Shown piece by piece: positions 18,099 to 46,093 of a DNA stretch of 64,000 nt; the stretch's first letter is position 1, and each line of letters begins with the position of its first letter. The notes below the pieces were generated by a model, which worked only from the letters and a program-made list of their open reading frames with translations, ran no database searches and was not told where the DNA came from. The position numbers and the translations under genes were made by a program. The DNA is from Rugalucina vietnamica (Eukaryota; Mollusca; Bivalvia; Lucinida; Lucinidae): the NCBI GenBank assembly GCA_964017185.1, contig OZ024870.1, positions 34,798,139 to 34,862,138 on the forward strand, written 5' to 3'.

Positions 18099-21000
18099 TT
18101 TTTTTTATTAAAAAAAAACAAAGAAGAAAAAAAGATAATTCTGAAACAGCATTTTATGCACAAATGAATACATATTCGTAAAAATTGAATAGAAATCAAA
18201 ACTGTCTGGTATATTATATAAGTACAGATTTGAACAAGGCATATTAATCAATAAATAAAATAGCACATGCATATTTAAACAATCCTTGTCATAATCAAAA
18301 TTTCCCTTTCTTTTTTAATACAAACCATGAAATTCCAACAACCTTTAGTTTTCACAGTAAGTTAAATAAATGAATAAACTCTAAGACATAATCCATACAT
18401 ATATTTTGTGACAAGCTTGGAGTGCTCAGAATGATTTATGCCAAGCCCACTACTTCAGAAGTGTAAATCAGGGACAGTAATAACTAGAGGTGACACATGC
18501 CAAAAGGTGTGAAAAATATGAAAACAGAATCTCCCACTAAGAATTTGTCATAGGGCAATAATTTATATACATTTTTTTTTAAATTGCAAATAACTTTTTT
18601 TTAAAATTGCAAATACACCTACATATTTCATTTAAATTGCAGATATCCCTAAATATTCTTATCAGTATCTAGAATGTATTTCCAAGTAAAAGTAACAGAA
18701 TTTCCCACTTGTGTCAATGGGAATCAGTTTTAAGAGTGATCTTCCTCACTATAATGTCTTTATTTAGAAGATAATATACAAAATGCTTATCTCACATATA
18801 GACCTGGGGTACTCAATCTTACAATTTTGTTGAATTATGAACTCAAACTTGTGCTGTTTTTTTTTTTTCTTTTTTTTTTTTTTTTCTTTTTAGTCAATTA
18901 GTTTCAAACAGTGGTTGCTATGGTACTTAGACTATTAAGCTATCATTCTGATATTCTTACAAAATGACAGAGATAAAAATCAATGTGATATAATTTGATC
19001 TGGGTTTGCATGGGAAAGCATATAGAAAATAAACTTTGTTAAATTTAAGAACACCAGGGCTTTTTTTATTTAGGCGTTTAACTCTACAAAGAAAGACAAC
19101 TCTTATGGTATATTTCCTCAACACTGAAGTCCAAAAGCTTTTTGTATGTTTGTTTGAATCACAGTCAACAGCTATGGTCCTGTTGGGACACTGCCTCCAT
19201 TACCCAAAATGAGGATGTCATGACATCCAAAAAGAGCTTCAAATGTAACCACCCAACTGGTGTGATTCAATGATAATAAGCTCTTAATGCAAGTTTAAAC
19301 ACTTCCCTAAATTTCTAAATTACTCTTAGAAATTTTATAATAGTGCAATAGCGTAAAACCGAGAAAGAACTTACTGTGTCTCTGTTTGGGTGGGAGAGGA
19401 GGGGGCCTTGGGATTTCCATGCTAGAATGGCTTCCACTTGAAAATGATCCTGAACTAGAATAAGTTTCATCCTGTGAGCTTGTCCGTTGACTAAAAGATA
19501 TTGTATTAGATTTTTGCATTTGAACACCGGAAAATGATTGCGAACTACTCGTAGATGAAGATGATAGTCTTGCTTCGGAACTTTGCGAAGTCTGTGAAAT
19601 TCTGGACGTTACCGTCCGACTAATGACCGTTCTCGTACCACTACTTGACGACATGTAACTATCTAACGTCGTCACATCAGGTACATTATCATAACTAGAA
19701 AGCATGCGGTTCAGCTTGGCCGACTTATTTGGTAAAGGAGGCGGTCCTTGCCCATTGTTTTTGTTCCGTCTTGTAATGGCCTCCATATCGGCAGTCAACT
19801 TAGTCAATTTGTTAATCTCTTCTGTTAATTGGTTAATTTGATTCACCGTACATTCAGAATGAGACTGTGACATCTTAACATTTCTGTTCACTAATTTCGA
19901 ATCTGACGAAGTCTTTGAAAATGTGTTTGCCCTTTGGGTCCTTTGTTCACCATTTAATTCTTCTGCAGAATGATTTAGTCCTGAACCAAAACTACTTGTC
20001 GGCGATTTACTCATCGGGGAGCTACAAGTGCTGCTTTGGTTCAACAAACTACTTTGACTAGATCCGAGGGAACAATCTAACAATGATGTATTAGCAGACA
20101 TCATGCTGCTGCGTGGTGATTGGCTGGTTGGTGTCAGCTGACCATGTAACCCAGCATTGTAGACCATTTCGAGCATGTTCTGGACTTGTGAGCGGCGTTT
20201 CTCTTTGTCAGGTAGAGGGGGTGGATGTTCACCATCAACCTCATCCTGGGCGAGCGACTGCTGGATCAACCTACAAAGAAAACAATGTTAACCCATTTGC
20301 TGTTGTGAAAAAGTAACAAATATACCACTAGTACTCAGGGTTCCCACGGAAAGTATAAAACAAAATTCCATGACTTTTCCATGATAATTCCATGATCGGA
20401 GTTAAACCAGTGCTATTTTTTCTGTTTATTTTTTTGCCATATAACACTATATAAAAGGCAAGAACAGATATATTGCAAAAGTAACTAACTTTGAGGTATT
20501 ATCTAGGTTTCTGATAAAGAAACATTAGTTTGAATGCCCGGCTGAAAAACATATGAAAACTAGAAATGCGTGTTTGTAAAACACTATGCCCCCAACTGTA
20601 TGCTTGTCCCTAAACTGGCAGTTTGTATGATTCATTTATTTCATTCGAATGCAGTCAAATTTAATTTCCTAAAGAAGCTGTTCAGTTGCGTCTGTTTTGA
20701 CCTCGATCCAGAAACAGAATGAAAGCTTTTTTGCAGGCGAGTTAGAAATGAAGTAAAAATTTAAAAATGGAGTAATTTTGTCAAAATTTGACAGAGAGTC
20801 CTCAAACGTTAATCAGGTGATCTTCTTCTCAGCCTCAATCAGCATACCAAATATGAAGGCTCTAGCTAGCTAGCTCAAATACGTTTTGAGATATCTTGCA
20901 CACAAGATTTTCAAAATTTGTTTTCAAAGGGACATTATTCCAACAAGGGGCATAACAAGTACATGAAAAAATACAAGCCAACTATTTTTTCATGAGGAAT

Positions 21001-24000
21001 CTGTATATGAAATTTCAAAACCCTATAATTCACCGTTCAAATTTCACCGAAAAGTGGGAAAATCAATCAAAATTTCAAAATTCTGTATTTTTGTAAATAT
21101 TGGACAGAAAGTTCTCAAAAGTTAATCAGGTCATCTACTTCTCAGCCCCAACAAGTGTACCAAATATGAAGGCTCTAGCTTCAATACCTTTTGAGATATC
21201 TTGCACACAAGATTTTCAAATTTTGTTTTCAAAGGGACATAACTCAAAAAAGGGGCATAACTTGGCCATACAAAAAAATACGGGTCAACTATTTTATCAT
21301 GAGGAATGTGTATATGAAATTTCAAAACCCTAGCATTCACCGTTCATAAGTTTCAAATTTCTCCGAAAAGTGGAAAAATCAATCAAAATTTCAAAATTCC
21401 GTATTTTTGTAAAAATTTGACAGAAAATTCTCAAAAGTTAATCAGGTCATCTACTTCTAAGCCCCAACAAGTGTACCAAATATGAAGACTCTAGCTTCAA
21501 TACTTTTTGAGATATCTTGCACACAAGATTTTCAAATTTTGTTTTCAAAGGGACATAACTCAAAAAAGGGACATAACTTGGCCATACAAAAAATACGTGT
21601 CAACTATTTTATCATGAGGAATGTGTATATGAAATTTCAAAACCCTAGCATTCACCGTTCAAAAGTTTCAAATTTCACCGAAAAGTGGAAAAATCAATCA
21701 AAATTTCAAAATTCCGTATTTTTGTAAAAATTTGACAGAAAATTCTCAAAAGTTAATCAGGTCATCTACTTCTAAGCCCCAACAAGTGTACCAAATATGA
21801 AGACTCTAGCTTCAATACTTTTTGAGATATCTTGCACACAAGATTTTCAAATTTTGTTTTCAAAGGGACATAACTCAAAAAAGGGACATAACTTGGCCAT
21901 ACAAAAAATACGTGTCAACTATTTTATCATGAGGAATGTGTATATGAAATTTCAAAACCCTAGCATTCACCGTTCAAAAGTTTCAAATTTCACCGAAAAG
22001 TGGAAAAATCAATCAAAATTTCAAAATTCCGTATTTTTGTAAAAAATTGACGGAAAGTTCTCAAATGTTAATCAGGTCATCTACTCCTCAGCCCCAACAA
22101 GTGTACCAAATATGAAGGCTCTAGCTTCAATACTTTTTGAGATATCTTGCACACAAGATTTTCAAATTTTGTTTTCAAAGGGACATAACTCAGAAAAGGG
22201 GCGTAACTCGGACATGAAAAAAAATACGGGTCAACTATTTTTTCATGAGGAATGTGCATATGAAATTTCAAAACCCTAGCGTTCACCATTCAAAAGTTAA
22301 CACACACACAGACGCACAGACACACAGACACACAGACAAGCCGAAAGCAATATGCCCTTCCAACTTTTTCAAAGTTGGGGGCATAAATATTTATGAATAT
22401 TTAGCAAGCGTGCGAAGTGAGCAGGGAAAATAATCAATGCCAAACACATCCAAACTGGCATTTCATAACAAAGTTCCATGATTGTTCCATGATATTTCAT
22501 CATTTTTCAAATTCCATGACTTTTCCACACATGCACTTTTTTTTTCCATTTTCCATGTTTTCCAGAGCCCGTGGGAACCCTGTGTAATGCATAATGAGTG
22601 GATACAGGTGAAATAAAGCAGATTAAAGTTTTGCTGTTCTTTGTATTTTCAAATTAGACACTATCATATCAAAATATTTCCAATCATTCTAATTTTAATT
22701 TCAATGACCTATGGTCAGATTCTACTGGGAAAGCAGCTATGCGAGGTCAATTGCAACATCTTATTCACAACACTTAGGCCACAGTTCAAGCTAGCCAGTG
22801 TTAGACTAGACAAACCTCCCTGATCCAAGCAAAATACACCTCAACCTCTTTATAACACTATTGTTGGGATCCAAGCCGATTTCTGTGTTAGCTATCCAAT
22901 CCATGTTATAACCAGAGTAAAATGTATAGACATACAGTAAAAATAGTCTAAAATGGCCATTTGCGGTCCAAAAATGATCAGTGTTATATCCAAAACCGTG
23001 TTGTAAAGAGCCATGTTTTAAAGAGGTCCAGGTGTACCTTATTATCTGGTAATGTCTTGATGTAGAACTTTAATATATAAATCTAGGGTGTAAATAGGGT
23101 TAACATATTTATTTTTGCTTTAAAACATAGAATATGGGTACTTATTAGAACAGTCTTGGCAAGGCTGTTCTAACATGTACCCAAAATCAGTTTTGAGCAA
23201 AAATGAGTAAAAAATATTGAGTTTTTTCAACTGAAAATTATCATTCTTACTGATGAAAAAAAAATCACTTTCTATGACATAGGTGTATTTGAGCCTCTTC
23301 AAAAGAAAACCAGATTTTTGCCTATGCAAAAACAAAGGCGCAGATCAGCATCGCAGTAACTGCGAAGCTGATCAGCACCTTTGTTTTCGCTACACAGACA
23401 GTACAATGTCTCTTATTCTTAAATCCGAAATTTCAAGCTTCTAGCCTACTTCTGTGACTGTACAGGTCGGTTTGAGTCGGACCTGTTCGGAAACCCTGAA
23501 GACCGGTTTTCTAGCGTCATGGCTCATTTGTCTGCTCACAACTATACTTACTGTGGTATAATAGTTTCAGCATTCTGAGGTAAGGGAGGTTTGGGGGGTG
23601 GGGGCGGGGAGGGTTGGTGGTTAAAGTCAAAGCTAGTGTGATTGGTGAGGGTGACACTGTCGGACGACTTGGAGCCGTGGAGTGACGTGTTGTCGTAGAG
23701 CCCCAGGTCACTGGTCTGGTGCAGGATCTCTCTCTCTCTAGGGGTGAGGGGTATATCTGGGAGGGAGCTACGCTTTGGGCTGGAAGAGATAATGTGTATA
23801 GTGCAATAATAAGAAGCACAAAGGTATCAAACGAGCCACCGCATGGGAAAACCAACAATTCGCATAGGCGAAAACAAAGGCGCAGATCAGCTTCGCAGTG
23901 ACTGCGAAGCTGATCAGCGCCTTTGTTTTCGCTACACAGATAGTACGATCACTCTTCTACTTTAGTCTAAAACTTCAAGCTTCTATCCTGCTTGTGTGGA

Positions 24001-25823
24001 TGTACAGACCGGTTTGTGTCAGACCTGGTCGGAACCCAAATTGTTGGTTTTCTCACGCACAGGCTCAAATAATGTCTAGTACAACACTTAGAATATTATA
24101 GTGGTTGTATCCTTAAAACTATGCATGAACAAAATATGAGCCGCCTCCTGGGAAAACCAACAATGTGGTTTCCGAACAGGTCCGACACAAACCGGGCTGT
24201 ACAAGCACAGAAAAGAGCTAGAAGCCTGAAATTTCGGATTTAAGTAGAAGAGGAATTGTACTATCCACGTAGCGAAAACAAAGGCGCTGATCAGCTTCGC
24301 GGTTACCGCGAAGCTGATCTGCGTCTTTGTTTTCGCATATGCAGATTGTTGGTTTTCCCATGAGGCCCCTCAAATATGTGTACAGTACTCGGCAATCAAC
24401 ATAAGAGTGATTTACCATTTGAAATATGAATGAAACAAAATACAATTAACCAATAAGAACAGACATACTATTCAGATTACTAACAGTAAGATGTCACTCT
24501 TACGTTGATTGCCGAGTACTGTAGTTCAGACAATGAATATATGCACCTTGTATATACAATGAGCATACATGTATTACAATATAGTACAGTCAGAATTCTT
24601 TATAACCATGAACGCTATAACGAAATATTCGACTTCCGACAAAAATTTTGTGGGGACGGATTTTTTCCTATAAAAATTACTACGTTATTACGGAAAACAC
24701 GCTTACCAACACCGACAGTAATCATTGGGAACAAATCTGGCTTTTGTACACATTTTTCTGCCTTTACAACGACACAGACAATTATTCCGAAAATTTGTTT
24801 ATTGAAGTTTACGACATACCGCCAACCGGCAAAGTGATTGACAGGTAATCAAGGGAGACTAATCTTACGGTATCGGATTAATTAGTTGGAACGCCAATAC
24901 AGTAACGACTGATGTTTTAACAATACCGCATTAATTTTTTGACAGGAGTTCATCGCTTTAAGGTTATCAATTATCCAAATTAAGAGTTAATTGATATAAT
25001 TTGTGTTCTTTAATTGAGTGAGAAGATGAGATCTTTGAGTACAGGTGTCAAATTTGGATACAAAAATGGAGCAATCGACGTTAAATTTATTAATCTTTGA
25101 AAGTGTAAAAACCTTTATAATGTCTCAGCCGCCAGCAAAACGACGAAGAACACAATTTTCCGTCGCCGACAAGAAAGAGATCATCGCCTACAAGACCGAC
25201 CATCCGACAGCAACCCAATATGAGATTGCAGCCCGTTTTGCAAGGAAATGGGGGATGAAGGTAGGCAGATTAACGGTGAGGGACATTCTGGGGTGCTACT
25301 AATCACCCCACGGCACACCACGGGACCCCACGGCACCCCACGAGACCCCACGGCACTAATTTAATTCATAAATATCATTGACTGAACTAAATGAAAGTTG
25401 TTAAAGTCACGAGATATTGTTTATATTGTGATAATTATTGAATAAATTATCTTATTTGTATGGAGTTGAGTGATTTTGTTTGACTATCTAATGAAATTTG
25501 ATTGATGTTAATTGTTTGAATAATCCTGGGCAATAGCACGGATCTGTGTTTCCAAATACGTATTAAAAGAATGAATCAAGTGAAAAGTTTTCAAACCTAA
25601 AGCTGTAAACACATTTTATTGTATTTTGACCTGTCATGCTAGCCTATGTATGAGTCAAATGTTTTGTTTTTATCAATGGTATGAATTTGAAAGAGGGTGT
25701 TTTTTATTCTCTTGCATCTATTAGTCAGTACCACGAGGGGGTATGACTAGGTCTTGCATGGAAACTGATTTACAACCATTTGCCGACCATCTTTTTTTTT
25801 AATTAATTCTACATTTACTTAGT

Positions 25824-25869
<46 letters not shown>

Positions 25870-26984
25870 CAAAATACATTTTTCCCATTGTCTTATTTGT
25901 TTTCTTATCTCGGTTCTGACATAAAAAATATGAGCCTCGTCGTGAGAAAACCGGATTTTTTCCTATGCAAAGTGTCACACATGTGGTGAAATATGTCAAA
26001 TATTGTTTGGAAATTGGTCTTTGTTGTCTCTTGTTCTTTGGATTAATATGTTTGGAGGCTTGTTCTAAGAATTCTATAGGTGCATCTTATTACACGTAGA
26101 GAAAGAAGAAAGAAACAATTTTGTGCATTGAGAATCGTTTGTATATTAAGATCATGTGACTGAGCAATAAAAGGTGTGAAAACGTGTGTCAGGTTACCGT
26201 GCGGTAAACGAATTATCAGTTATGTGTCTGTTTGCGAGGTGTTAAAACAATCGGCTACTGTTGTTGAATTAATCTCTAATAGCGCGTGTCATTAATTAGA
26301 TTATCAAGTATTTCGTGTTAACTGAAATTGGAATGTTCCCCAATTTGAAATTTATTAGAATGTTTCATATCGGCCGCGGTAGTCTAATGGATAGCGTTAT
26401 AACTTTTAATACTTTTATTCTCGAAAAGGGAACATGTTAATAACAAATAATTTTAAAACATGTTAGCTTTTTGCAACTAACATGTTTGCGCAATGTTAAA
26501 TTTCATTAATTGAAGCAAGTTTTACGATTGCGCGGCTATGATACGTTCAAGAGCTCTGTTTTTTTGTTTGTTTTTTTCAACCAAAGTTAGTACCAAAGTT
26601 GGTTTGCGCTAAAACATCATTCTCAGAGATTTGGGCTTTGCCATTAAGAGTAGAATAAATGATTGTGTTAGTTATGTTTCCCGGTGTTATCATATAACGA
26701 GGAAGCATCATCACGAGCAGCTAGACTGGTTGTATAGCACACAATTGGTCGCATGTTTAGCGCATGTTGCAGTTGTAGTTTCGCTTCTACGGAAAACCTT
26801 ACTGGTCACGGCCTCGTTTCAGTTAATATTCGGCTGTGTCTTTATACACACTAATTATTCATTGTTTATGATAAAGTATGACTATCAAAGAATAAGGCTT
26901 TACAGCCTGTACACATTTGTTTCCATGGGTAACGGGAAATGCGCACGTGATACCTCGCCATTAAGCTATCATTTTTTTTTTTGG

Positions 26985-27032
<48 letters not shown>

Positions 27033-29132: not shown

Positions 29133-29169
29133 CTGGAAACATACACAGAGATAATGAATTTCTTAAACA

Positions 29170-30204
29170 AGAACTCCGCGGAGGTCGATATCGCACCTGC
29201 ATCGGGCAAAGTCAATAGACCATGAAATATAGTTCAAGGGCACCGGGTCAAGGTGCGTGCTTGAAGGGCATGTCAAGGACAATTACTATGCAAGGTCTCA
29301 GACTTGCAGCTATCTCTGATGTCGAGAAAACCAAACTTCGACGTAAAAATTTTCAAAGTCAGTGGACCGTGAAATATAGGTCAAGGGCACCGGGTCAAGG
29401 TGCGTGCTTGAAGGGTATGTCAAGGACATTTACTATGCAAGGTTTCAGACTTGCAGCTACCTCTGATGTCGAGAAAACCAAACTTCGACGTAAAAATTTT
29501 CAAAGTCAGTGGACCGTGAAATATAGGTCAAGGGCACCGGGTCAATGTGCGTGCTTAAAGGGTATGTCAAGGACATTTACTATGCAAGGTTTCAGACTTG
29601 CAGCTATCTCTGATGTCGAGAAAACCAAACTTCGACGTAAAAATTTTCAAAGTCAGTGGACCGTGAAATATAGGTCAAGGGCACCGGGTCAAGGTGCGTG
29701 CTTAAAGGGTATGTCAAGGACATTTACCCTGCAAGGTTTTAGACTTGCAGCTATCTCTGATGTCGAGAAAACCAAACTTCGACGTAAAAATTTTCAGAGT
29801 CAGTGGACCGTGAAATATAGGTCAAGGGCACCGGGTTAAGGTGGGTGCTTGAAGGGTATGTCAAGGACAATTACTATGCAAGGTTTCAGACTCGCAGCTA
29901 TCTCTGATGTCAAGAAAACCAAACTTCGACGTAAATGTTGACAAAACTTCGACGTAAAAATTTTCAAAGTCAGTGGACCGTGAAATATAGGTCAAGGGCA
30001 CCGGGTTAAGGTGCGTGCTTGAAGGGTATGTCAGGGACAATTACTATGCAAGGTTTCAGACTCACAGCTATCTCTGATGTCGAGAAAACCAAACTTCGAC
30101 GTAAATGTTGACGGACGGACGGACGAACGAACGGACGAACGAACGAACGGACGGACAGAAATTTGGACTCCTATATCGCACCCTGCTATAAGCAGGTGCG
30201 ATAA
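29170..30204 (+). mobile_element. Composite hairpin element 2
   Basis: 5' hairpin CTCCG-CGGAG at 29174-29183, motif TATCGCACCTGC at 29189-29200, ~147-bp tandem units, a GGAC/GAAC microsatellite at 30111-30157, and a 3' hairpin at 30174-30203. The hairpin's outer arm is the exact complement of the motif and its inner arm has one extra C. It directly abuts composite element 3. Confidence 0.75.
29222..30090 (+). repeat. ~147-bp tandem array that stays open in one frame
   Basis: About six units. Four and a bit are stop-free and would read as a 49-residue repeat (RSRAPGQGACLKGMSRT...). The unit length is a multiple of three, which explains the long open frame. There are no splice sites or protein features, so I do not call a gene. 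Confidence 0.85.
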
Positions 30205-31500
30205 AAACTAGAAAAAGTGCCTTGAGAGGCACGTATACCCCCGGCTGATAGCCACCAAGCCCCCTTCCCTACCCCATACCTAAGCAATCCGGCACATGCT
30301 CATCCCTGACATCGAACCTCACATCACCAATGAAAAATAGTACCCTTATCAAGTACATTTAAGAAACCACCAAGCCCCCTTCCCTACCCCCTACCTAAAC
30401 AACCCGGCACATGCTCACCCCTGACATTGAACCTCACATCACCAACGAAAGACAGCACCCTCATCAAGTACATTTTAGAAATAAGCTGTGTAAAGTACTT
30501 TACATACAAATATGGGGAAGTGTAGTTTTAGTATGACATATCTATTTTAGAGCGGTATACAGAGCTGACGTGTATACCCAATCTAGGACATAAGCGCGGA
30601 CATTTTGGGTCAGGTCCTCAGTCCTAGATTGAAATGAAATTAGAATGTCATTCTTAAAAAAAAAAAAAAAAAAAAAATTAAGATGTCCTAGATTTTGACC
30701 TCTAGCCCCACCCCCAGCATGTACCCTAGTGTCTAATGTCATTAGAAACAAGGCAAACCTTATAGAGTACCTATGGGGCAAGTATGAATGATTTCTTAAC
30801 ATGATAGTAAAAAAAAAGTACAGAAAATACAATTATTAAAGAAGTTCTAGATTTTGACCTCTAGCTCCTCCCCCCCCCCCCCTCCGCACATAGACCCTAG
30901 AGTCTGAATCTTACGTGGTACCTATGGTCTAAGTATGAATGCATTCTGGCAAGACTTAGTGGATGTCAAGAAAACAGACTTACAGAAAGTTTATCATGGT
31001 ATATATCATATAAAAATGTGTCCTAGATTTTGACCTCTAGCCCCACCCCTGGGGACGGTAACCAGGATTTGGTGACATTGAATATGAAAGCAAACCCTAA
31101 AGGGTATCTATGAACTATATAAGAACTATATAAGAATACATTCCTATGATTGTTTGTTAAGATATGAACTTAAGAGAAGAAACATTAACATTGTAAACAG
31201 CACATTTTAAAGGTGACCTAGATTTTGACCTCCAGCCCCACCCCCAGGCATGGACCCTGGGGTCCGAACTCATGGAAACAAAGCAAACCCTATAGGGTAC
31301 CTATGGTCCAAATATGAATAGTTTCTGACCATTGGTTCATGAGATATACACCTCTAGAGAAACTTTGACCAAAACTTTGACATAAATTCTACGAACGTTC
31401 CGGAATTACGAACGAAGAAACGAACTAACGAACGAACGAACATACGAACGGAAAAGCGAAAACTATATACCCGTCGGCATAAATGCCGGGGGTATAAATA
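30205..31500 (+). mobile_element. Composite hairpin element 3
   Basis: Starts AAACTAGAAA as element 1 does. 5' hairpin GTGCCT-TGAG-AGGCAC at 30217-30232, motif TATACCCCCGGC at 30234-30245, degenerate units of ~160-195 bp carrying a 'tagattttgacctctag' core (30689, 30848, 31024, 31219), a CGAA-rich microsatellite at about 31400-31455, and a 3' hairpin at 31466-31496. The outer arm exactly complements the motif; the inner arm carries a GT bulge. Confidence 0.72.
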
Positions 31501-31536
31501 TCAAGAGATGAGCTTACTACTTACTGGCTTGAAATT

Positions 31537-31640
31537 TCTGCTTACCCCATAAATGACAAATGGACTTTCCCATTGTTATCATTTGGACGAGTCCACTTTC
31601 ATTTTAAGGGTAATCAGGAGTTGTTTTAATGTGCTACATT
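31537..31640. mobile_element. Family E MITE fragment
   Basis: Left part only (CCCCATAAATGACAAATGGA). Confidence 0.55.
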
Positions 31641-31644
31641 TGCT

Positions 31645-31712
31645 ATGTAGTCGGCATTTGAGGTCTTAACAATGACGTTAAGCTAACAAAGTTTTGAACA
31701 ACTGGCCCCAGA
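31645..31712. mobile_element. Family D MITE fragment
   Basis: Only the right end remains (TTTTGAACAACTGGCCCC). Confidence 0.6.
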
Positions 31713-32616
31713 TATGTAAGCCACCTGACTTCACCTTTTAAAGTACAACAGAAATAATAACAAAATAGCGATTGAGGACAGTATAATGCAGTTGGCCACC
31801 GCTGATTTGTTAAAATTTTATCAGTCATTTATCAAATATCAAGACCTTTGTTTAAGTAGTTTGCAATGCAAAATACTGATCTGTCACAAATCACATAAAT
31901 ATCCTACAAATATTTGGTATAATAGTACTTGAATGATAATTTTAATATCATAAATCAGCCAAAGCAAACATAATATGCTCAGTGATGTTTACACGGTTCT
32001 CTAAAACATAAACTTATTAACTACTGTTTTATATAAAGTTGTTCAAATAATAAACTTGTAATTTGCCAGTTTATATTTATGGCTATATTCCCAAGCAATT
32101 TATGTTTGTCTTTATCGGGGAAGACTTGTCTGGTTGTCTTAACTTTTAAAGTTTTCTGTCCATCTGTCCATTTGTGACTCTTATAATGATATTCCTGAAA
32201 ATACAAATGTTAAAATGAAGTGTTTGCTATTCATCATACTTAGTTTGTAAGATATCAACAAGCCTATGTATAAGAAGAACTGCATCTAATATAAATGTGC
32301 AATACTGTTATCTATCATACAGTGGGTTTTAAACTCTAAAATTCACTGATAATGCAGTAAAGCCTGCTGTCTATAAGTGCAAAGAAGCAAATATTTTCGT
32401 TTTAAGAGTATTTGCTTTCATTCTTATTAAAACTGTGTAATTATGTATATCTAGGTTTTATTCAAAATATTAAGCTAAATATAAGTTGTTAAGTGTCAGC
32501 TATCCATTTGCAGCACTTTAAACCTTTGGATTTACAACAATTAACTTTCACACAAATACTGTTGTGCTGAGGCACTGATTGGAGGAGGTCTCTGTGGGGT
32601 AGAACAGATAGTGTAA

Positions 32617-33071
32617 AGCACCAGTCATTTGTATCCCCGGCTCCCCTAGGGCCGGGGAATAGCAGGGCTTTTAACTTTTCAATCTTTAAAGCCCAGGTAA
32701 AAGCCTGGAACTGCGGAGCCAGATTGTGGTAAAATCCCTGCTGAAAGCCCCAGCTCCCGGAGGCTGACAATAATGTGGAGCAACAGCTGGGAGTTGCTCT
32801 GGTGAAACTGAAAAATGGGACAAGGGCTCCAATAAATATTTAGGTGCATTTGCAAATTAGATTAGTACTATAAAAGTTAAATGTTAAAAATACCATCAAT
32901 ATCTAATTTGAATTAATGTGACCATGTATTGGCAGGAAATGAAAACCCCGGCAAAATCCCCGGCAAGGCAGGGACTCATCAGAGATTAAAGCCTGGCACT
33001 TTAGCCCCGCTTTGTCCCTGATATCCCCGGCCCCCCTTGGGGCGGGGCCGGGGATACAAATGACTGGTGCA
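32617..33071. mobile_element. ~455-bp inverted-repeat element
   Basis: Ends GCACCAGTCATTTGTATCC and GGATACAAATGACTGGTGC with G/C-rich subterminal palindromes; no coding capacity. Just upstream of the SPMIP5-like gene. Confidence 0.8.
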
Positions 33072-33233
33072 TAACTGTACTCTGCATAATCATGGAGCAT
33101 TGTGGTGTACACCATTGCAATAAGTGGACTAAAACAAAAAATTGTTGAACAGTGAATATTCCACACTAACTGATCAAAAAATTCAGATGACGTGGATACG
33201 ATTTATGATAATTGTATGTCAACTGTTTTTCAG

Positions 33234-36200: not shown

Positions 36201-37557
36201 TAAATGTTTTCTCTATAATGCATGGCATATTTTTCACTTTCCTATATAGACAACTAACTATACTTGTAATAATGTAAACATATACATTCATTTTTTTTAA
36301 TCGAGAAAATGTATAGAAAGCTAGAATATTCACCATCAATTCTAATATGATTGCTGCACTAGTATGGTTCCATTTAGCCTTCTGCTATTTTGCCCTATTC
36401 CTAGAAATATTCATTACTCCCATTTCTTCTACTCAATTTAAGTTCCTGAATTACAAGGCAAAGTTGAGCAGTGACGCAAGAAAACCGGTTTTCGGGGCTT
36501 TCGACTAGGTCCGACACAAACCGGCCTGTACAATCACAGAAGCAGGCTAGAATATTGAAATTGCGGATTTAAGAAGAAGAGCGATTGTACTATCCGTGTA
36601 GCGAAAACAAAGGCGCTGATCAGCTTTGCAGTCACTGCAAAAATCTGGTTTTCTGAAGATGCGGCTCAGTTACAATTAAACCTTAGCTTGAAAGTGAATT
36701 TTTTGCAATTTTACAGACCAAAATAACGTAGTTGATTAGTTGCTTAAATAAAGAGGAACAAGTCTGGCTTATAACTTTACTACAATGCCTTTGTTCTGGT
36801 AATACATGTAAATTTTTAAGAATTGTGCAAAGCAGTGATATTTGACAAAGATATGATTTTGGGATGATTTTCTCTATTCTGTCAATTTGAAGATTTTTGA
36901 CCGATTAACGTGATTAAGAAAATGAATGTTGTAAAGCTTACCAGAAATAGATCTCTAAACTGAACAGCCAGCAATTTTGAAAAACAACAACAACAACATA
37001 GTTTTGAATCTTCACATAGTAACCGTTCCTAGTATTAATCATCTGGCTGTGTTTACAGGGTTCCACGTGAGCAGCTGAGGAGTGCACCACCCACCTTCCA
37101 CAGACGATTATATGTACCAGATGGCATGATTCCAAAATATACAGGATATATTCCACGTAAGTTGACTGTAAATAAACTTTGTAGTGGTTAGGGCATTCCT
37201 CATAAATCAGGACAAAAAACGAGATGTTGCGAGTGGTTGCAAAGGTGGAAGAGCCATCATCAAACAGAACTGCTGGCCGCATGTTGATCATGTGAGATTA
37301 TTTAAAGAATTTCATGCAGCTGCTGCACCCTCCATAATGCGCGTGTTGTGTTTTTAAGTCCATGAGTATATGTGTTGCAAGATGCCTCGCTTATAATTTG
37401 CAGTACTGTACATTATTCCAATTCTATTTCAGATAAACGTTTTGTGTTTGGTAACACATATGGAGATACAACTCGTGGATTAGATGTTTGCTCACACAAT
37501 GCTCCCAGTTTTGGTGAATTTACCAAGATGAAAGCCAGTCAAAGTATAGCGGCATAA
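33234..37557 (+). CDS. SPMIP5: SPMIP5/CIMIP2-like microtubule inner protein, 5 exons
   Basis: This protein is predicted to line the lumen of ciliary or sperm-tail doublet microtubules. The exons are 33234-33363, 34185-34412, 34793-34982, 37059-37156 and 37433-37557; all phases agree. The likely start is the ATG at 33288, giving 238 residues; the exon is open upstream of it, so an earlier start is possible. Four glycine-tyrosine repeats are visible: VPGYTG-YIPRIPFKFGGTY, IPGYKGYIPRIKPTELG, and IPKYTGYIP joining HKRFVFGNTYG. The middle resembles vertebrate C10orf82 (PRL...YRxxHP then EPPIPGxxGYLPR). The C-terminal GYIP...FGNTYG repeat is more like CIMIP2B (FAM166B), so the protein joins features of both. 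Two MITE-A copies sit in intron 1, and others lie in later introns. Confidence 0.82.
33414..33622 (-). mobile_element. MITE-A
   Basis: GTGCAG / TGCACAG stem with one mismatch; first intron of the SPMIP5-like gene. Confidence 0.83.
33937..34150 (+). mobile_element. MITE-A, right stem arm lost
   Basis: GATCAGCTTTGCGGTAACCGC then jumps to the body; 34 bp before SPMIP5-like exon 2. Confidence 0.85.
35005..35220 (-). mobile_element. MITE-A, left stem arm lost
   Basis: CAAAGGTTACCGCGAAGC: the first arm is deleted at the palindrome. 22 bp after SPMIP5-like exon 3. Confidence 0.87.
35626..35640 (+). CDS. Candidate 15-nt microexon of the SPMIP5-like gene
   Basis: A strong polypyrimidine acceptor (tttttgtttcacag) is followed by 15 bases and a GT donor (gtttgt). 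The segment encodes LEIPR-type residues and keeps the frame between exons 3 and 4 whether included or skipped. The donor is weak, so it may be an alternative exon or chance. Confidence 0.35.
36045..36205. mobile_element. Foldback element
   Basis: Arms containing GAAATTCAGATTTTAGCTTT and the inverse AAAGCTAAAATCTGAATTTC around GAGAAGCCCTTTGGGCTTC. Confidence 0.75.
36466..36667 (-). mobile_element. MITE-A, right stem arm lost
   Basis: CAGCTTTGCAGTCACTGC followed directly by the terminal part. Confidence 0.8.
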
Positions 37558-37794
37558 AAGAGGACTTTATTAATTGGGTTAATGTCATTGTGATTGTGGA
37601 CATCAATGATGCCAATGAAATATAACAGAGACACAAGCCAATTATACTGTTAGGTCGATAAACATTCACTTGGAAAAGATAGAATTTTCAGAAAATTTGG
37701 TAACTAAAAGGCTGTAAAAATGTTATGTGTAATTCATGCTTCTTACCTGTCTGGAATATTTCGAAGCAAGAAGCTATATCTGAAAATAGTATAT

Positions 37795-38016
37795 GAGCTG
37801 CTTCGTGAGAAAACCAGATTTTTGCCTGTGCGAAAACAAAGGCGCAGATCAGCTGTGCAGTAACTGTTTTCGCTACACTGATAGTACAATTCTTCCTCTA
37901 ATTATACCCAAAATTTCAAGATTTTAGCTCATTTTTGTGACTGTACAGGCAGGTATGACACATTGTGTCGGACCTGATCAGAAACCCCGAAGACTGGTTT
38001 TCTCGCATCGCGGCTC
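37795..38016 (+). mobile_element. MITE-A, right stem arm lost
   Basis: CAGCTGTGCAGTAACTG then TTTTCGC; ATAT duplicated. Confidence 0.86.
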
Positions 38017-38031
38017 ATATAATACCAACAT

Positions 38032-38170
38032 GGAGCACAGGAGTGTGGTGGCATAGTGGCTAGTGTGTCAGACTCCGCTCCAGAGTTAACTCCCTTAGTA
38101 CTGATCACTACACAGGGAGCTGTCAGTTCCATGGTCACATTACTCTATAACCTTTGACTGGGACGTTAAA
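38032..38170 (+). mobile_element. SINE-like sequence
   Basis: GTGGCATAGTGGCTAGTGTG head and a TGACTGGGACGTTAAA tail, as in the other SINEs here. Confidence 0.5.
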
Positions 38171-38477
38171 TTTTCACATTTACTTTTTTGTATAGATTCA
38201 AATGTTTTAAGCATTTGTTTTGTCTGTAGGTTGTGAGTATTTATTGTTAAAAGCGTAATTGTGATAAAAGTATGTACTTTTTGCATATAAACTGAGATAA
38301 ATATTGTATCAACAGTACTGTCAGGTGCACAACAGTACCATTGGTGATCAAAGGTTTGTGATTAAGTTGAAGTGATAGGTACTTAAACTGACATGTTATT
38401 TAAGGCCTCGTCACACATAAGTGTAAATCTCTCTACGTAGACTTGCGTTTAATTGCATTAAAAATAGGGTTTGTTTG

Positions 38478-38570
38478 TTTGATTTATTGCTGTGCATCCC
38501 AGACAAGAGCTATGGTCTTGTCGGGATGTTAGCTGTTGAAAGGGACATAAAGACATAAACAAACAAGAAT
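38478..38570. mobile_element. SINE tail fragment
   Basis: GTTTGTTTGATTTATTGC ... GGTCTTGTCGGGATGTTAG, like the tails at 19140 and 33640. Confidence 0.4.
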
Positions 38571-38898
38571 TACGCAAGTCTACGCAATGGTGGGTCGAGA
38601 GATTTTCGCTCGTGTGATGAGTCCTTTAGCAAAAATAGAAAAATTGAAATAGCTTTTGCTTCTGCAATTTGAGTTAACTAATTGGATGTGGTAATTAATT
38701 AGTAGCATGTCTGCTTTACTGAATAAATGCAGCCTCAGAATTGAACCTAATTATGCCCAGCTGTCGTGTTCAATGCATTCTATCATTGTGACTTCACTTT
38801 CTTTTTTGACCGATTCATTTAAAGCGAAGTGACAGTCACTGCCAAATAAGTGAGCACTCAATACTCAGTAAAGGCTTCTAGAAGGCTTGCCCAGGCCC

Positions 38899-39127
38899 CG
38901 AGGTTATAAAACTTTTTTATGCTCAACTCAGCGGAGACTAAAATTTATCCTGCTCATAAATGTTAAAATGCCAACAATTGTTGGCATTTTAACATTTATC
39001 AGCAGGACAAATTACAGGCCTTGATGATCTAAACCTGAAATTTCAATTTGCTTTGGCTATTTCATGGTTAATGAGCAGTTGAAATTTTGTGCTCAGCTGA
39101 GTTGAGCATGAAAAAGTTTTATAACCT
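38899..39127. mobile_element. Family C MITE
   Basis: Starts GGTTATAAAACTTTTTTATG and ends AAAAAGTTTTATAACC, with the CCAACAATTGTTGG core. Confidence 0.78.
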
Positions 39128-39129
39128 TG

Positions 39130-40080
39130 GGGCCAGATGTCTGCTTATTATCAGAATTAGAAAAGAAAAACTTACTGTGATTTATACTTTACTGAAATAA
39201 CTACTGCAAGTTCTCAGGAAATGTATTCGTTTTACGTAGTTTTGTAATGCTATGTTACCATCTTTGTTGATATAGTTTTCATAGTTTTCACATCATTTTA
39301 TGTAGCAATTAACATTTTGTTTCTGTTTTAATGGAATTTATTACATGTAAATTTTGGGAAGAGACTTTTTTATTATTAAGTTTTTAACATCTGTTTTAGT
39401 GAGTTTGTATAGTTGATGGGCAAAATTTCATGGTGTTCTAATTGACATTCTTGCCTAGACATTATATGGCTGTAAATTGATTTGTTTTTTAAGCCCACAA
39501 CATTATGCAGTATGTCTTTCTTTGCATTGTTTATACCCAGACTGAAACTGGCATATTTCCATTGATAATTCTGAAAGTTTTAGATATCCGATAATAATGT
39601 ACACATTTAAACTGCATGTAGGCAATGAGTGTAAAAGACGTTGCATTTCATAATTGTCACTTTATATTACTGGTATCATCTATGCCAGATAAAAGAGAAA
39701 TTCAGCATTTCACACATAAAACCATATTAATGGGCACACTTGCAGAATTTTATATAGTGCAACTTTGTGTAATAAACTATGCAAAAATATCATGTAGAAC
39801 TACCGTGGATTATTCAATATGTTGTCCGCTCTTGTTTCTGTGTTTGTCATTTTTCATGCCATTACTTGCTTAGTTTGATATTAGTATTATTGCTCAGCAT
39901 TTATTTATCCCTAGTGTGATGTTTTGTGTAAGAGTAAAGGTTTGGTTTGCTCTCGCTTATTTTCCCTAGTTTTAATGCTAAGCCCAGTGTGTGTTAGCAC
40001 TTATAAATTAGGCAAACAGTGCAGCTAGGCTATCATGCAATCTGTACTTTATGATAGACCGAAATGTCTAAAAATAATTT
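39130..40080. other. AT-rich stretch, no gene seen
   Basis: No coding signal; lies downstream of the SPMIP5-like gene and may partly be its 3' UTR. Confidence 0.5.
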
Positions 40081-40306
40081 GAATCTCGCCATGAGAAAAC
40101 CATATTTTTTGCCTATGTGAAAACAAAGGTGCAGATCAGCTGCGCAGTAACTGCACAGCTGATCAATGCCTTTGTTTTTGCTACATGGTTAGTATAATCC
40201 GTCTTCTTAAATCTGAGCTTCTAGACTTTTTCCGAGACTGTACAGGTCGGTTTGTGTCGGACCTGGTTGGAAACCTTGAAGACCAGATTTCTCGAATTGC
40301 AACTCT
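40081..40306 (+). mobile_element. MITE-A, diverged
   Basis: Stem CAGCTGCGCAG / CTGCACAGCTG, ends decayed. Confidence 0.7.
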
Positions 40307-40747
40307 TTTGTCATACATAAATGGTCCTTCGGGGCTTTATAGTTGTTACAAGAGGGTGCACTAGCTATAAAATCTAGAGTCCAAAGAGTGCTTCTGTAAT
40401 GCTGATATATCACAGTGCTGCATGCAAGTTTATCGTTTCATTTTTTCATACGACCAGTTGTAGCAATTTGCATTTACAAATGTTTTTTAAAATTGTTCAA
40501 CAATTTTATTGGGGTTCTATTTTCAATTAAAGTAGCTTCATGGGATTTTTCTTTAGAAAGTATTCTTACAGTAGATGTTGTCTGTGGGATAAAACTAAAT
40601 AGGGAATTGTTGGCTCCTTAGTATGATTTCTATGCCATTGGTAAATTCTATGCCTAACATGTTTTTATATAATAGGGGTAAAAGTGTTAAAAATATACTT
40701 GTTTTACGGTCATTTATCTAAAATGTATGTTCAGAGGAAAGGGTTTA

Positions 40748-40852
40748 GTGTAGCGAAAACAAAGGCGCTGATCAGCTATGCAGTCACTGTACAGCTGATC
40801 AGCACCTTTGTTTTTGCATAGTCAAAAATCCAGTTTTCTCATGATGCGGCTT
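40748..40852 (-). mobile_element. MITE-A half element
   Basis: Hairpin half only; the outer stem here is fully symmetric (GCTGATCAG on both sides). Confidence 0.7.
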
Positions 40853-41071
40853 ACATCTAAGTTTGCAACTAGTTCTATTCTGTATTGCCTTCACAAACTG
40901 GCACACAAATAAATGTTAAAGCTTGTCATTATGTTACTGAATAACCTTTTCCTCTGAGCGTATTATCATCAATAAATAGCATTAAAACTAAAATATTTTT
41001 GGACTGTCTTTTTAAATAGTTCCGTATTTTAAAATGTGTATTTTGACATTTACTTTCATATTTTCTACAAC

Positions 41072-41450
41072 TTCACTGGGTGCTTCCTTGGTCCCGATAT
41101 AAAAAGGTTTTGTTTGACTTTTTGGGAACGGATTTTGTTCTACTTTTTAACATAGTAAATATCCACAAAACAGAGTCGACAATAACATAAATTGCTTAAT
41201 TTATATCACTTTTTAACGAATCAAACCTAATTTTACTATTAAGATGCATTCAAAGCACTGTATTATGACTTGAAATTCTTTCAGTGATGTCATAAATTAG
41301 AATCAAATCAAATCTTTGACCAAATTCTAGGAATTAGTGTAGAAAAAAATCCGGTACCTGAATCAAACAAAACCAAATCCTATCGGGACCTATAGTAAAA
41401 GTCAAACAAAACCTTTTTATATCGCGACGAAGGAAGCACCCAGTGAACTT
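41072..41450. mobile_element. ~378-bp MITE with ~50-bp inverted ends
   Basis: TTCACTGGGTGCTTCCTTGG...ATATAAAAAGGTTTTGTTTG inverted at 41400-41450 with one short mismatch block. Confidence 0.8.
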
Positions 41451-42079
41451 GTCTGCAATTTTAGACCAATATGCAAATGACTCCTATATGTAAGACATTG
41501 AGCACTTTTTAATGGAATATTTGTCATTACCCGGTACCTCCCAAAAGATGAAAATATAATCTTGCACTTTCCGTTTATTATCGATATGAAAATTAAAAAA
41601 AGAAACCTGTTTATTTCTGACACATTATTGTTATAAAGGTGCTTTGATAATTATAAGCCTACACAAAATATGAATTTAATGAATGATCATGTTAGTAACA
41701 TAAAGGTGTTTGTTATTATTTTCCTCCTAGAAGGTGACCAAAAGCTTGAAATATTAGGATTTTTTTCCCGAAATATAAGGATTTTACTCAAGCTGCTCTT
41801 CGATGATTGGAGAAATTTTACGACAGCCTCAACATTGGACACAATTAAATATGGTCTAGGACATTCTATCATTATATATTTCTATGTGGACAAAGAAAAG
41901 TATGAATAACTACATGTATACAGGGGAAGCAAGAAATTTAAACATTTTTTGAAAGCTTACAAGAAAGGTTTTTGAAATAATACTCTCAAGGTTATTAAGA
42001 AAAATGAAAATTCTTGGGTGTGCAATATTTTGTTTTTAATGAAATGTTGTTTTTTTTACTCTTTGGTTACAGTACATCA

Positions 42080-42320
42080 GGGCCCAGTTGTTCAAAACTT
42101 TGTTAGCTTAACGTCTTCGTTAAGACCTCAACTTGAAGTAAATGCCGCCTACATAAGCAAATACGTGTACACTGTTATTTGCAAATACACTGTTATTTTT
42201 TAGATTCTCACATTTTATCAACAACAAATAACAGTGTATTTGTAATATTTATGTTTGAACTTTCAACGAATCGTTAACTAATAACTATAACAACATCGTT
42301 AATTTTGAACAACTGGGCCC
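42080..42320. mobile_element. Family D MITE, diverged
   Basis: GGGCCCAGTTGTTCAAA ... TTTGAACAACTGGGCCC; the inner hairpin is degraded. Confidence 0.8.
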
Positions 42321-42488
42321 AGGACTGAGGTTGCAAATTTGATCACCACACCACAAGCCATAAAAATTATACCATATTAGCGCCATTAATTAAGAGTTTG
42401 CAACAGATGTTCATTCCAAGAACATGTAAGAAGCATGTTAGTTCTGAAAATTATTCTCGTCATAGCAAAAGTTCTATAGAACTCATGT

Positions 42489-42528
<40 letters not shown>
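42489..42528. repeat. Poly-T tract
   Basis: About 40 consecutive T. Confidence 0.95.
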
Positions 42529-42529
<1 letters not shown>

Positions 42530-42853
42530 TTGGCAACAAAATACAGGCACCATTGAGACACAGACTGGCTTATTTAAGTCTACAGGTTTCAAGTACAAAG
42601 TTCACCGCACTTAAAATTAAAGAAGGTGGTGTTAAATATTAATGGGAAAATTTGTAGAATGAAAAAGTTTATCAGTATTAAATGGAAGTGATAAGCATAA
42701 AATTTAATCAATTAATAAAATGTAAGCAATCAAACCGTGGAGGATGGTTGTATCGAGGACTCGAATTTTATAACTGGATGATCAAAAGATGTATTAAATA
42801 ATAAATGTGGCAAAGATCGAACATGAAAATGGTATACCAAGTACAGAACAGTT

Positions 42854-43087
42854 GAACCGCATCATGAGAAAACCAACAAAGTGTTTTCCAAGCAGGTCTG
42901 ACACAAACTGAGCTGTACAAGCACAGAAGTTGGCTTGAGACCAGAAATTTTGGATTTAGCAAGTAGAGGAATTGTACTATGCGAGTAGCGAAACCAAAGG
43001 CGCTGATCAGCTTCGCAGTTACTTCGAACCTGATCTGCGTCTTTGTTTTCACATATGCAGATTGTTGGTTTTCTCATGATGCAGCTC
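42854..43087 (-). mobile_element. MITE-A
   Basis: TTCGCAG / CTTCGAA stem with mismatches. Confidence 0.82.
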
Positions 43088-43339
43088 ATATCATGAATGG
43101 TCAAATTTGATATGTATCGTGTTCGAATTTGTTCAGCAGTTCGGCCGAGGTTGTAATTGCACACCAGTTATGTGAGAAATGAATATATTTATGGAAATAT
43201 TATATTTGATAAACAGCTATAACACTAAACATTGAAAACAAAAAAACATGTGACAGCTCCTTTTGGATGGAATAGTTATTCTCGGTATGGGATTTTTAAG
43301 CTGATTTATGTTTGTTCTTCTTAAAATATACCATACTTA

Positions 43340-44098
43340 AGTCTAATTCGCATGCGCCAAAAATACACGCTTATAAATATACTCCGGTGTGCAAATTTTA
43401 CTCGGGGTAAGCAAATGGCGCATGCGAACGCAAATACACTCCCGAGGATATTTACATATGGGTAAATTTACTCCTGGGTCTGACCAGATGCAAATTTTAT
43501 TTTTACAAATACACACGTGTAAATTTACAATTTTGTCCCATGCGAACGCAAAGTAAAATTTACCCATGAGTATTTTTATTTCAGGTCAATATTCTGCTTT
43601 TAGATAAATTCACATTTTTTGTTCATAACTGATTATATGACAGTTGCTGGAACTTTGGACATTGTTGCTAAATAAGAGTTAACTTTATTGCCATTCATCA
43701 CATTTTAGATCATATGCCATGGAGTGCAAACAGCCACACTATTTATTCATCATTCTTGGTGAGATTCTTGGGGCATTTTAACAGTAATTCCTTGTGAAAG
43801 GATGATAAAAGGGAACTGTTTTAACCGCTGAGGTTATGCATGACCATTACATGATTCTCCTCTGCCAAAGTCTACAAGAATACCTTGAAGCAGCCTCTTC
43901 TTGTTTTGCAAATACAGAAAACTTAAATGAACAGGTTTTAATCCAGAAATGATAAATTTACATACAAAAATACTCCTGGTGATAAAACCCATGCAAACGC
44001 AATTTAAAAACTCACAGGTTGATTTGCCACCGGAGTATATTTACACACCGGAGTATATTTATATGTGTGTATTTTTTGCGCATGCGAATTGGACTTTA
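43340..44098. mobile_element. ~760-bp element with ~60-bp inverted ends
   Basis: AAGTCTAATTCGCATGCGCC at the left and GCGCATGCGAATTGGACTT at the right, followed inwards by repeated ACTCCGGTG motifs. Confidence 0.8.
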
Positions 44099-44392
44099 TT
44101 TAGTTGTACTAGAACATGTAAATAGAATTAGTACAAAACCACTTGTCTTCCTAAATCCGAAATTTCAAACCACTAGTTTTCTGTGGCCAAGCTCAGTATG
44201 TATCTGGAAAGGTCAGAAATCAGTTGTTTGTTTTTCTAGGACTCCATCAAAACAAAGTCTGTCTTAGGTTTGTGACAAAAAAAAAAAGACTAGAAGGAAA
44301 TGTAGAGTTCGCATAAAATATACTCAGATACAATATGCCGTCTGTCTGTTCCTATTTTCAACATATGAGCAAAATTAATTCTGCTACAAATT

Positions 44393-44631
44393 GAGCCTCG
44401 ACGCGAGAAAACCGGTCTTCGGGGTTTCCGACCAGGTCCGACACAAACCGGCCTGTACAAGCTCAGAAAAGAGCTAGAAGCTTGAAATTTCGGATTTATT
44501 AAAGTAGAAGAGGAATTGTACTATCCGAGTAGCGAAAACAAAGGCGCTGATCAGCTTCACGGTTACCGCGAAGCTGATCTGCGCCTTTGTTTTCGCCTAG
44601 TCAAAAATCCGGTTTTCTCACGATGCGGCTC
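44393..44631 (-). mobile_element. MITE-A
   Basis: TTCACGG / CCGCGAA stem; AATT duplicated. Confidence 0.88.
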
Positions 44632-44889
44632 AATTATGTCATTTCTTTTACATGCATTTGCACTTTCCAGTATACGCTTTTAGATTTAATCCCATGCATT
44701 CAGTAAGATAAAAATGTAAAGCTTAAACATATCTTTTCTCCTTCTTAGTCTATCTAATATTGCTAAATGACAAAAATCAATATCAAAAGCTATTAACTGG
44801 CCAAATGGTCAACATCTAGACTAAGTGTCAAGCTTGCATGTTTCTCTTATATTTTTTTTTATTTATTTCTTTTTTTAATTCAGTTTTAC

Positions 44890-45066
44890 GCCCCTTTCAA
44901 GATTATTTCAGCTCACATGAGACGGGCCAATCAGTAGGTGGGGCGAAAGCGGGAGAACCCCTAGAAAAACCACCTGACACACCCACAAGCAGAACTTGGC
45001 TTGTCTCGCATGGCCAGAGCGGGGCTCAAACCCACACCAGACACAGCGGTGAAATGATCGAGTGTT
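44890..45066 (-). mobile_element. SINE-like sequence
   Basis: The minus strand carries GGGTTTGAGCCCCGCT, a good B box, about 60 bases from its 5' side. Confidence 0.5.
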
Positions 45067-45261
45067 TAAGTCTCTTATTTTTCACCAAACATGGCTATAA
45101 AACGATGAAATTTCAGATTTAGAAATACTTATATGTATGTCAAACATACCAAAAAAGTTTTTATCAGCTACTTGCAAGGTGCCTCCACTTTTGTAGTTTT
45201 TCTCAGGATACAGCTCATATAGACCTGCCTCGGCGTCACCCTGTCTTTTTATTTCCTTATA

Positions 45262-46093
45262 AATAAGAGCTGTCGCAGGACAGCGTAGCTCGCCTGAATT
45301 GTGCTTTGCCACTAAATCTATTACAATCTCTGAACCAAGACCTTGACCTCAAGGTCTCTCAGGTGGGCAGTGAAGGTAAAGCATAAAACTTCTGACCAAT
45401 TCATGTATCTACCAACATGATCCATCAACATATTCAAGAGATATAAACTTATAAAAACTTTAACTCAGAGTGATTTTTACATAAAATTTCTAAGTCCGTG
45501 ACCTTGACCTAAAGGTCACTCAGGTGGGTTGTGATGGTACATCATAAAACTTCAGACCAATATCTATCAATATGCAAAGTATCAACTTGATCCATCAACA
45601 TATTCAAAAGATATAGACTTACAAAAACTTTAACCAAAAACTTTAACACAAAATTTCTAAGTTCGTGACCTTGACCTCAAGGTCACTCAGGTGGGTCATG
45701 ATGGTACAGCATAAAACTTCAGACCAATATCTATTAATATGCAAAGTATCAACTTGATCCATCTATATATTCAAGAGATATAGACTTACAAAAACTTTAA
45801 CCAAAAACTTCAACACAAAATTTCTAAGTCCGTGACCTTGACCTCAAGGTCACCCAGGTGGGTCATGATGGTACAGAATAAAACTTCAGACCAATATCTA
45901 CCAACATGCAAAGTATCAACTTAATCCATCTACATTTTCAAGAGATATAGACTTATAAAAACTTTAACCAAAAACTTTAACATTTGAGCAACGCCGACGC
46001 CAACGCCGACGCCGACGCCGACACCGACGCCGACGCCGACGCCGAGGTGACTGCAATAGCTCTTCCTGTACTTTCGTACAGGCGAGCTAAAAA
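45262..46093 (+). mobile_element. Composite hairpin element 4
   Basis: 5' hairpin GCTGTC-GCAG-GACAGC at 45269-45284, motif TAGCTCGCCTG at 45286-45296, ~165-bp units (cores at 45339, 45500, 45667, 45834), a GACGCC-type microsatellite at about 45990-46045, and a 3' hairpin at 46057-46089. The outer arm exactly complements the motif; the inner arm carries TT in place of the matching base. Confidence 0.74.

Follow-up and report, generated by a model that had tools for sequence, protein, structure and literature searches.

What kind of element can repeat one architecture under largely different sequences, and whether the two ends of such an element could pair with each other, are the questions raised by four stretches in a 64-kb window (the whole stretch of DNA analyzed, 64,000 nucleotides) from the bivalve Rugalucina vietnamica. 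An earlier note had reported four elements sharing one plan, and when these stretches were read and every part was placed, all four were present where the note had put them (E1 to E4; Table 1). We are highly confident that they belong to the non-autonomous rolling-circle transposons of the Helentron/Helitron2 type (HINEs, DINE-1-like) and lie on the minus strand. Very probably, they represent four new families of an already known kind and are ordinary noncoding members of it.

Anatomy and orientation of the four elements

Anatomy and orientation were computed directly. On the minus strand, each element runs in the same order: at least two T, a 5' subTIR of 11 to 13 nt, an imperfect IR, a microsatellite, and tandem repeats, then an exact 3' subTIR, a palindrome, CT[AT][AG], and at least three T. 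The gap between the 5' subTIR and the IR is 5 to 10 nt, the palindrome starts 0 to 5 nt past the 3' subTIR in all four elements, and the 3' subTIR lies 21 to 26 nt from the CT[AT][AG] end, if that motif is the terminus. T runs flank both ends of every element, and the 3' termini (CTAG in E1 and E3, CTTG in E2, and CTTA in E4) are each followed by at least three T. The minus strand of the window has 35 occurrences of CT[AT][AG]TTT; for each element, one would lie within 8 positions with a nominal probability of 0.004, for a motif picked after inspection. The lengths of the tandem units, as measured, are given in Table 1.

Table 1. Positions of the parts of E1 to E4 and of copies of a short dispersed hairpin in the window
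Element	Feature	Positions	Strand	Remarks
E1	Element, HINE/DINE-1-like	20556..22387	minus	5' end near 22387
E1	5' subTIR	22373..22385	minus	TATGCCCCCAACT, TT before
E1	IR	22351..22365	minus	AGTTGGAAGGGCATA, subTIR complement plus 2-nt insertion
E1	Microsatellite	22300..22338	minus	Unit GTGTCTGT on element strand
E1	Central tandem repeats	20756..22298	minus	315 bp x 4.9
E1	3' subTIR	20585..20597	minus	
E1	3' palindrome	20570..20584	minus	6-bp stem
E1	3' terminus	20556..20563	minus	CTAG, then TTTT
E2	Element, HINE-like	29165..30204	minus	5' end adjoins E3 3' end
E2	5' subTIR	30192..30203	minus	TATCGCACCTGC
E2	IR	30174..30186	minus	1-nt insertion
E2	Microsatellite	30110..30156	minus	GTCC/GTTC type on element strand
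E2	Central tandem repeats	29207..30112	minus	147-bp units
E2	3' subTIR	29189..29200	minus	
E2	3' palindrome	29174..29183	minus	CTCCGCGGAG, 10 nt, no loop, not predicted to fold alone
E2	3' terminus	29165..29171	minus	CTTG + TTT
E3	Element, HINE-like	30204..31498	minus	Head to tail with E2
E3	5' subTIR	31485..31496	minus	TATACCCCCGGC, begins TATACCC
E3	IR	31466..31478	minus	Interrupted (two bases opposite one)
E3	Microsatellite	31408..31450	minus	GTTC type on element strand
E3	Internal repeats	30252..31332	minus	115 bp x 2 + diverged longer units
E3	3' subTIR	30234..30245	minus	
E3	3' palindrome	30217..30232	minus	6-bp stem
E3	3' terminus	30204..30211	minus	CTAG + TTTT; T run common to E2 5' end
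E4	Element, HINE/pearl-like	45261..46093	minus	
E4	5' subTIR	46079..46089	minus	TAGCTCGCCTG
E4	IR	46057..46068	minus	Interrupted (two bases opposite one)
E4	Microsatellite	45991..46045	minus	GGCGTC on element strand
E4	Central tandem repeats	45339..45982	minus	167 bp x 3.9
E4	3' subTIR	45286..45296	minus	
E4	3' palindrome	45269..45284	minus	6-bp stem
E4	3' terminus	45261..45267	minus	CTTA + TTT
	31-nt hairpin, example copies	1239-1269, 5396-5426, 12758-12788, 17281-17311, 24289-24319, 50932-50962, 55699-55729, 63460-63490		

The earlier note had oriented the elements on the plus strand. This reading was rejected, since the features agree with published HINEs solely on the minus strand; what had been called the 5' hairpin is thus the 3' palindrome and vice versa. 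The 5- to 6-bp stem described for that hairpin was recovered in E1, E3, and E4 (6 bp each) but not in E2, which has a 10-nt loopless palindrome instead. The distant motifs match exactly in all four elements, as had been claimed, over 13, 12, 12, and 11 nt (E1, E2, E3, and E4).

At E ≤ 0.01, the sole similarity between elements lies in the microsatellites of E2 and E3 (78.7% over 47 bp). The first description, in which every element had its own microsatellite, therefore does not hold for this pair, while no other pair is similar at this threshold. With the same exception, the absence of shared sequence stands at E ≤ 0.01, but comparison by eye shows that E1 and E3 both carry TAT[A/G]CCCCC and CTAGTTTT. 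No second copy of E1, E2, E3, or E4 was found within the 64-kb window. The abutment of E3 and E2 at a common T run fixes the 3' end of E3 and the 5' end of E2 within a few bases, if both elements are intact.

Four chance coincidences of inverted repeats could in principle imitate such a plan, and a permissive search does yield matches in random sequence. The first scan, which required no TA start, accepted motifs that paired imperfectly nearby and exactly at a distance, with a palindrome past the distant partner. It gave 4 matches in total on both strands of 40 order-2 Markov windows and 10 merged matches on both strands of the real window, namely, E1 to E4 and six others, whose local arms are equal in length and which derive from other repeats in the window. 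A second scan was tuned on E1 to E4 (T before TA; local score, taken as pairs minus length difference, of at least 8). With an exact distant match, it returned E1 to E4 only, four on the minus strand and none on the plus strand, against none in 20 random windows. When one mismatch was allowed, there was one extra real match (1611-153, with uninterrupted local arms) and one match in the 20 random windows. The random windows preserve base composition but not repeats. Beyond these counts, all four elements also have tandem repeats and a microsatellite at the right place, which makes coincidence exceedingly improbable. We take the arrangement as not due to chance, as the earlier note had argued from its four cases out of four.

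Patterns taken from the elements were also compared with viral contigs. The E1-end pattern had a single match there (L001), a stretch without the outer half of the IR that was taken as chance, and neither the DINE-1-end pattern nor the E4 repeat pattern had any. The E3-end pattern had 94 matches, and the E1 repeat pattern had 4, compared for base composition alone.

Relation to Helentron-type elements

The comparisons that follow draw on parts of the cited papers. Elements of the HINE/DINE-1-like class have exact or near-exact subTIRs of 11 to 15 bp, a range into which all four exact pairs fall. Each element has a 5' subTIR near the terminus with a complementary IR and, on the minus strand, a left (5') microsatellite and central tandem repeats. 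A palindrome follows the 3' subTIR in all four, and a hairpin is predicted to form alone in three of them, E2 being the exception. Because this plan matches the published anatomy of DINE-1 and HINEs, we identify E1 to E4 as non-autonomous Helentron/Helitron2 elements; the earlier note was right in naming Helentron, HINE, and pearl elements as relatives. Against this identity, each element was found in one copy in the window, two of the four termini are CTTG and CTTA rather than CTRR, and the 3' palindrome of E2 lacks a loop and is not expected to form a hairpin by itself.

In Drosophila, the subTIRs of DINE-1 are 13 bp long, and the 5' one has a partial or interrupted IR next to it; the element also contains a microsatellite rich in GTCY, central repeats, and a stem-loop at the 3' end, and it inserts at TT (Yang and Barbash 2008, PMC2374699). 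E1 to E4 resemble it in the order of parts, the partial or interrupted IR, and the GTCY microsatellite, and their flanking T runs would suit a TT target, but they differ from it in their central repeats; DINE-1 proper has a conserved core of >90 bp (PMC2374699). Among 14 tabulated DINE-1 subTIRs, 5 start with TATACCC, as does that of E3, while 7 start with ATACCC, 1 with TACCC, and 1 with TATACCA (PMC2374699). The DINE-1-like Helitron2_Cv of Calliphora has the same feature set as E1 to E4, with 11-bp subTIRs, a partial IR, a GTCY repeat, and a hairpin (PMC3630058), and Thomas et al. (2014) link DINE-1/HINE-type elements to Helentrons (PMC4067079).

In the oyster Crassostrea gigas, Cg_HINE elements have subTIRs of 11 to 12 bp, complementary IRs of 7 to 12 bp after a gap of 1 to 12 bp, and a left-flank microsatellite, which in several elements is of the GTCY/GTCC/GTCK type (Vojvoda Zeljko et al. 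2020, PMC7492417). By description, E1 to E4 are like them in subTIR length, the IR after a short gap, the left-flank microsatellite, the central satellite-like array, and the palindrome after the 3' subTIR; an inserted IR base is not mentioned in the text examined (PMC7492417). Perfect subTIRs occur in most copies of only two oyster elements, whereas for the remaining elements fewer than half of the pairs examined were perfect, and exact pairs in all four elements are thus slightly above the oyster average (PMC7492417). Helitron-like elements with CTAG 3' ends have also been described from the oyster genome, with subTIRs in 257 of 751, but they are not a full match: unlike E1 to E4, they carry TC at the 5' end and insert into AT, and the microsatellite was present in a single one (PMC7992393).

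Helitron2 is defined by a 5' hairpin formed from the 5' ATIR and downstream bases and by a 3' ATIR upstream of a hairpin, ~20 to 30 bp from the 3' end (Bao and Jurka 2013, PMC3627910). The ATIR-based 5' hairpin and the 3' ATIR just upstream of the 3' hairpin are common to E1 to E4, whose corresponding distance to the CT[AT][AG] end was given above (PMC3627910). Unlike E1 to E4, autonomous Helitron2 elements encode Rep/helicase, and imperfection of the 5' hairpin is not mentioned in the section examined (PMC3627910). Canonical Helitron1, with a 5' TC and neither a 5' hairpin nor an ATIR, was rejected as a model, since in all four elements the subTIR opens with TA preceded by T, and a 5' hairpin and an ATIR are present.

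Pearl elements of bivalves are short arrays of up to six ~160-bp repeats (PMC7492417, PMC5139131), and by description they resemble the 167-bp, 3.9-unit array of E4. In an older filing, pearl elements counted as MITE-like, moving by cut and paste and built around long tandem cores. This reading would account for the short inverted repeats close to either end of E1 to E4 and for the absence of long coding frames beyond the tandem array. However, if CT[AT][AG] is the end, the inverted repeats do not occupy both termini; they are asymmetric, with one side terminal and the other 21 to 26 nt inside. The palindrome, CT[AT][AG], and T runs likewise speak against MITEs, and pearl has since been reclassified among the non-autonomous Helentrons (PMC7492417). 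We therefore regard a MITE-like nature as very unlikely.

As Helentron-type elements, E1 to E4 would, from what the literature describes for their class, move by rolling-circle transposition. No Rep or Helitron helicase was found by Pfam (E up to 0.001) among the 13 stop-to-stop ORFs of at least 120 aa within the window; a partner element outside the window would supply it. This Rep/helicase would nick the 5' end beside the subTIR/IR hairpin, peel one strand off, and, close to CT[AT][AG], halt at the 3' subTIR with its palindrome, with the matching subTIRs as probable recognition sites at both ends.

Coding content and other repeats of the window

The Pfam scan of the 13 ORFs yielded two probable rhodopsin-type GPCR exons and spurious matches in the E2 array. 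Two plus-strand frames (47315-47809 and 48995-49666) match the rhodopsin-family GPCR profile (PF00001; E = 2e-26 and 7.8e-27), one in its N-terminal part and one in its C-terminal part, and are probably two exons. A 206-aa ORF in the E2 array matched Tn3 DDE (2.3e-06), PAS_5 (3.8e-05), and Ribosomal_S11 (7e-04), with no stretch passing alone, and these matches were treated as a repeat read as protein. A 326-aa serine-rich frame with PPPLPPK-like motifs (19307-20287, minus) had no Pfam match at 0.001.

Several short palindromic repeats are scattered through the window. A 31-nt hairpin, GATCAGCTTCGCGGTnACCGCGAAGCTGATC, is present in many copies (examples in Table 1), along with variants such as GATCAGCTGTGCAGTnACTGCACAGCTGATC, where a change in one arm is matched in the other, and looks like an abundant dispersed element with covarying arms. 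It often adjoins CAAAGGCGC (26 plus-strand sites). Minus-strand ORFs at 17210-17632 and 23517-23948 bear ENKGADQLRS.CEADL.LCFR peptides. Two 97-bp palindromes with 48-bp arms (15268-15364 and 50292-50388) lie 35 kb apart with zero differences, two perfect 44-bp palindromes (1576-1619 and 38956-38999) are likewise identical, and GTTAGAACCGCCTCnCCGAGGCGGTTCTAAC hairpins at 11533-11563 and 51981-52013 form another short palindromic repeat.

The interrupted IR and possible pairing between the ends

The imperfect local hairpin that the earlier note had pointed out is present in all four elements. The IR exceeds the subTIR by 1 to 2 nt at a single place, 6 to 9 nt from the outer end, with the flanking stems intact (two extra nucleotides in E1, one in E2, where the position of the bulge is ambiguous by two positions, and two bases opposite one in E3 and E4). 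The IR of D. melanogaster DINE-1 probably also has two bases opposite one after its TATACCC stem. The letters of the DINE-1 IR gave no literature match; among the listed papers matching shorter strings, PMC2374699 alone concerns DINE-1, and it contains the subTIR string and not the IR string. A perfect distant partner with an interrupted local one had been put forward as an unrecognized rule, but an interrupted 5' IR is already described in PMC2374699, and the matter has been in print since 2008/2013.

The earlier note was right that pairing with the distant motif could push the local arm aside; this idea coincides with the displacement model stated for Helitron2 by Bao and Jurka (2013, PMC3627910), to which only modeled pairing energies are added here. 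Under this model, the 3' subTIR may anneal to the 5' subTIR, displacing the weaker local hairpin, and so mark the endpoint and join the ends. In Helraiser, a Helitron1, the 3' hairpin acts as a terminator, and circles arise in which the ends are precisely joined (PMC5876387); at least one Helitron2-related subgroup in Fusarium occurs with joined ends (PMC5148889).

Relative pairing energies were computed directly (DNA parameters, before loop closure). End pairing gains 4.9, 4.0, 8.9, and 4.1 kcal/mol over the two local hairpins in E1, E2, E3, and E4, respectively, compared with 0.8, 0.0, 2.6, and 0.0 kcal/mol for a hypothetical exact IR. In this model, it is thus the interruption that tips the balance toward end pairing. 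Closing the loop of 0.8 to 1.8 kb costs ~7.6 to 8.4 kcal/mol by a crude formula of our own. In three of the four elements, this would more than offset the gain unless a protein or annealing in the course of strand displacement assists. An endpoint switch in E1 to E4 is thus a conjecture, published by others, that we hold to be possible but somewhat short of an even prospect.

The same elements may instead work with no switch at all, an explanation that concerns mechanism and is compatible with their HINE identity. The motifs would then serve solely for protein binding and be conserved in identical form at the two ends, and the IR would be a relic that is decaying or merely forms a cruciform; this accounts for both the exact subTIRs and the imperfect IR. 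DINE-1 IRs differ among species as "partial and/or interrupted" repeats (PMC2374699), the loop cost may prevent spontaneous end pairing, and the E2 palindrome is not predicted to fold alone, all of which would fit. Against this, the sole fault in all four elements is a net excess of 1 to 2 nt at a similar place with both flanking stems intact, whereas random decay would be expected to leave scattered substitutions, although the sample is four. We give the absence of a switch about an even chance.

A stronger proposal is that Helentron-type elements keep a defined asymmetric bulge, an extra 1 to 2 nt in the IR at 6 to 9 nt from the outer end, that weakens the hairpin just enough for displacement by the 3' subTIR. 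We consider this doubtful. It does not serve as a universal rule: in Fusarium, the printed letters of FoHeli1 and FoHeli2 appear to show short stems without interruption (PMC5148889), and mite HINE subTIRs are palindromic themselves (PMC4067079). The text passages and search listings covered contained no statement of such a bulge rule, and we make no claim of novelty from this.

E1 to E4 add four families to a well-described class, whose defining features the earlier note had recovered, in reverse, from the letters alone. For the choice of the Helentron 3' endpoint, a proposal is in print (PMC3627910), and the text examined held no test of it. If the bulge rule were true, a structural rule would be conserved over families of differing sequence, and the displacement model would gain a quantitative part; if it held in many families, it would offer a way to test how the 3' endpoint of Helentrons is chosen.
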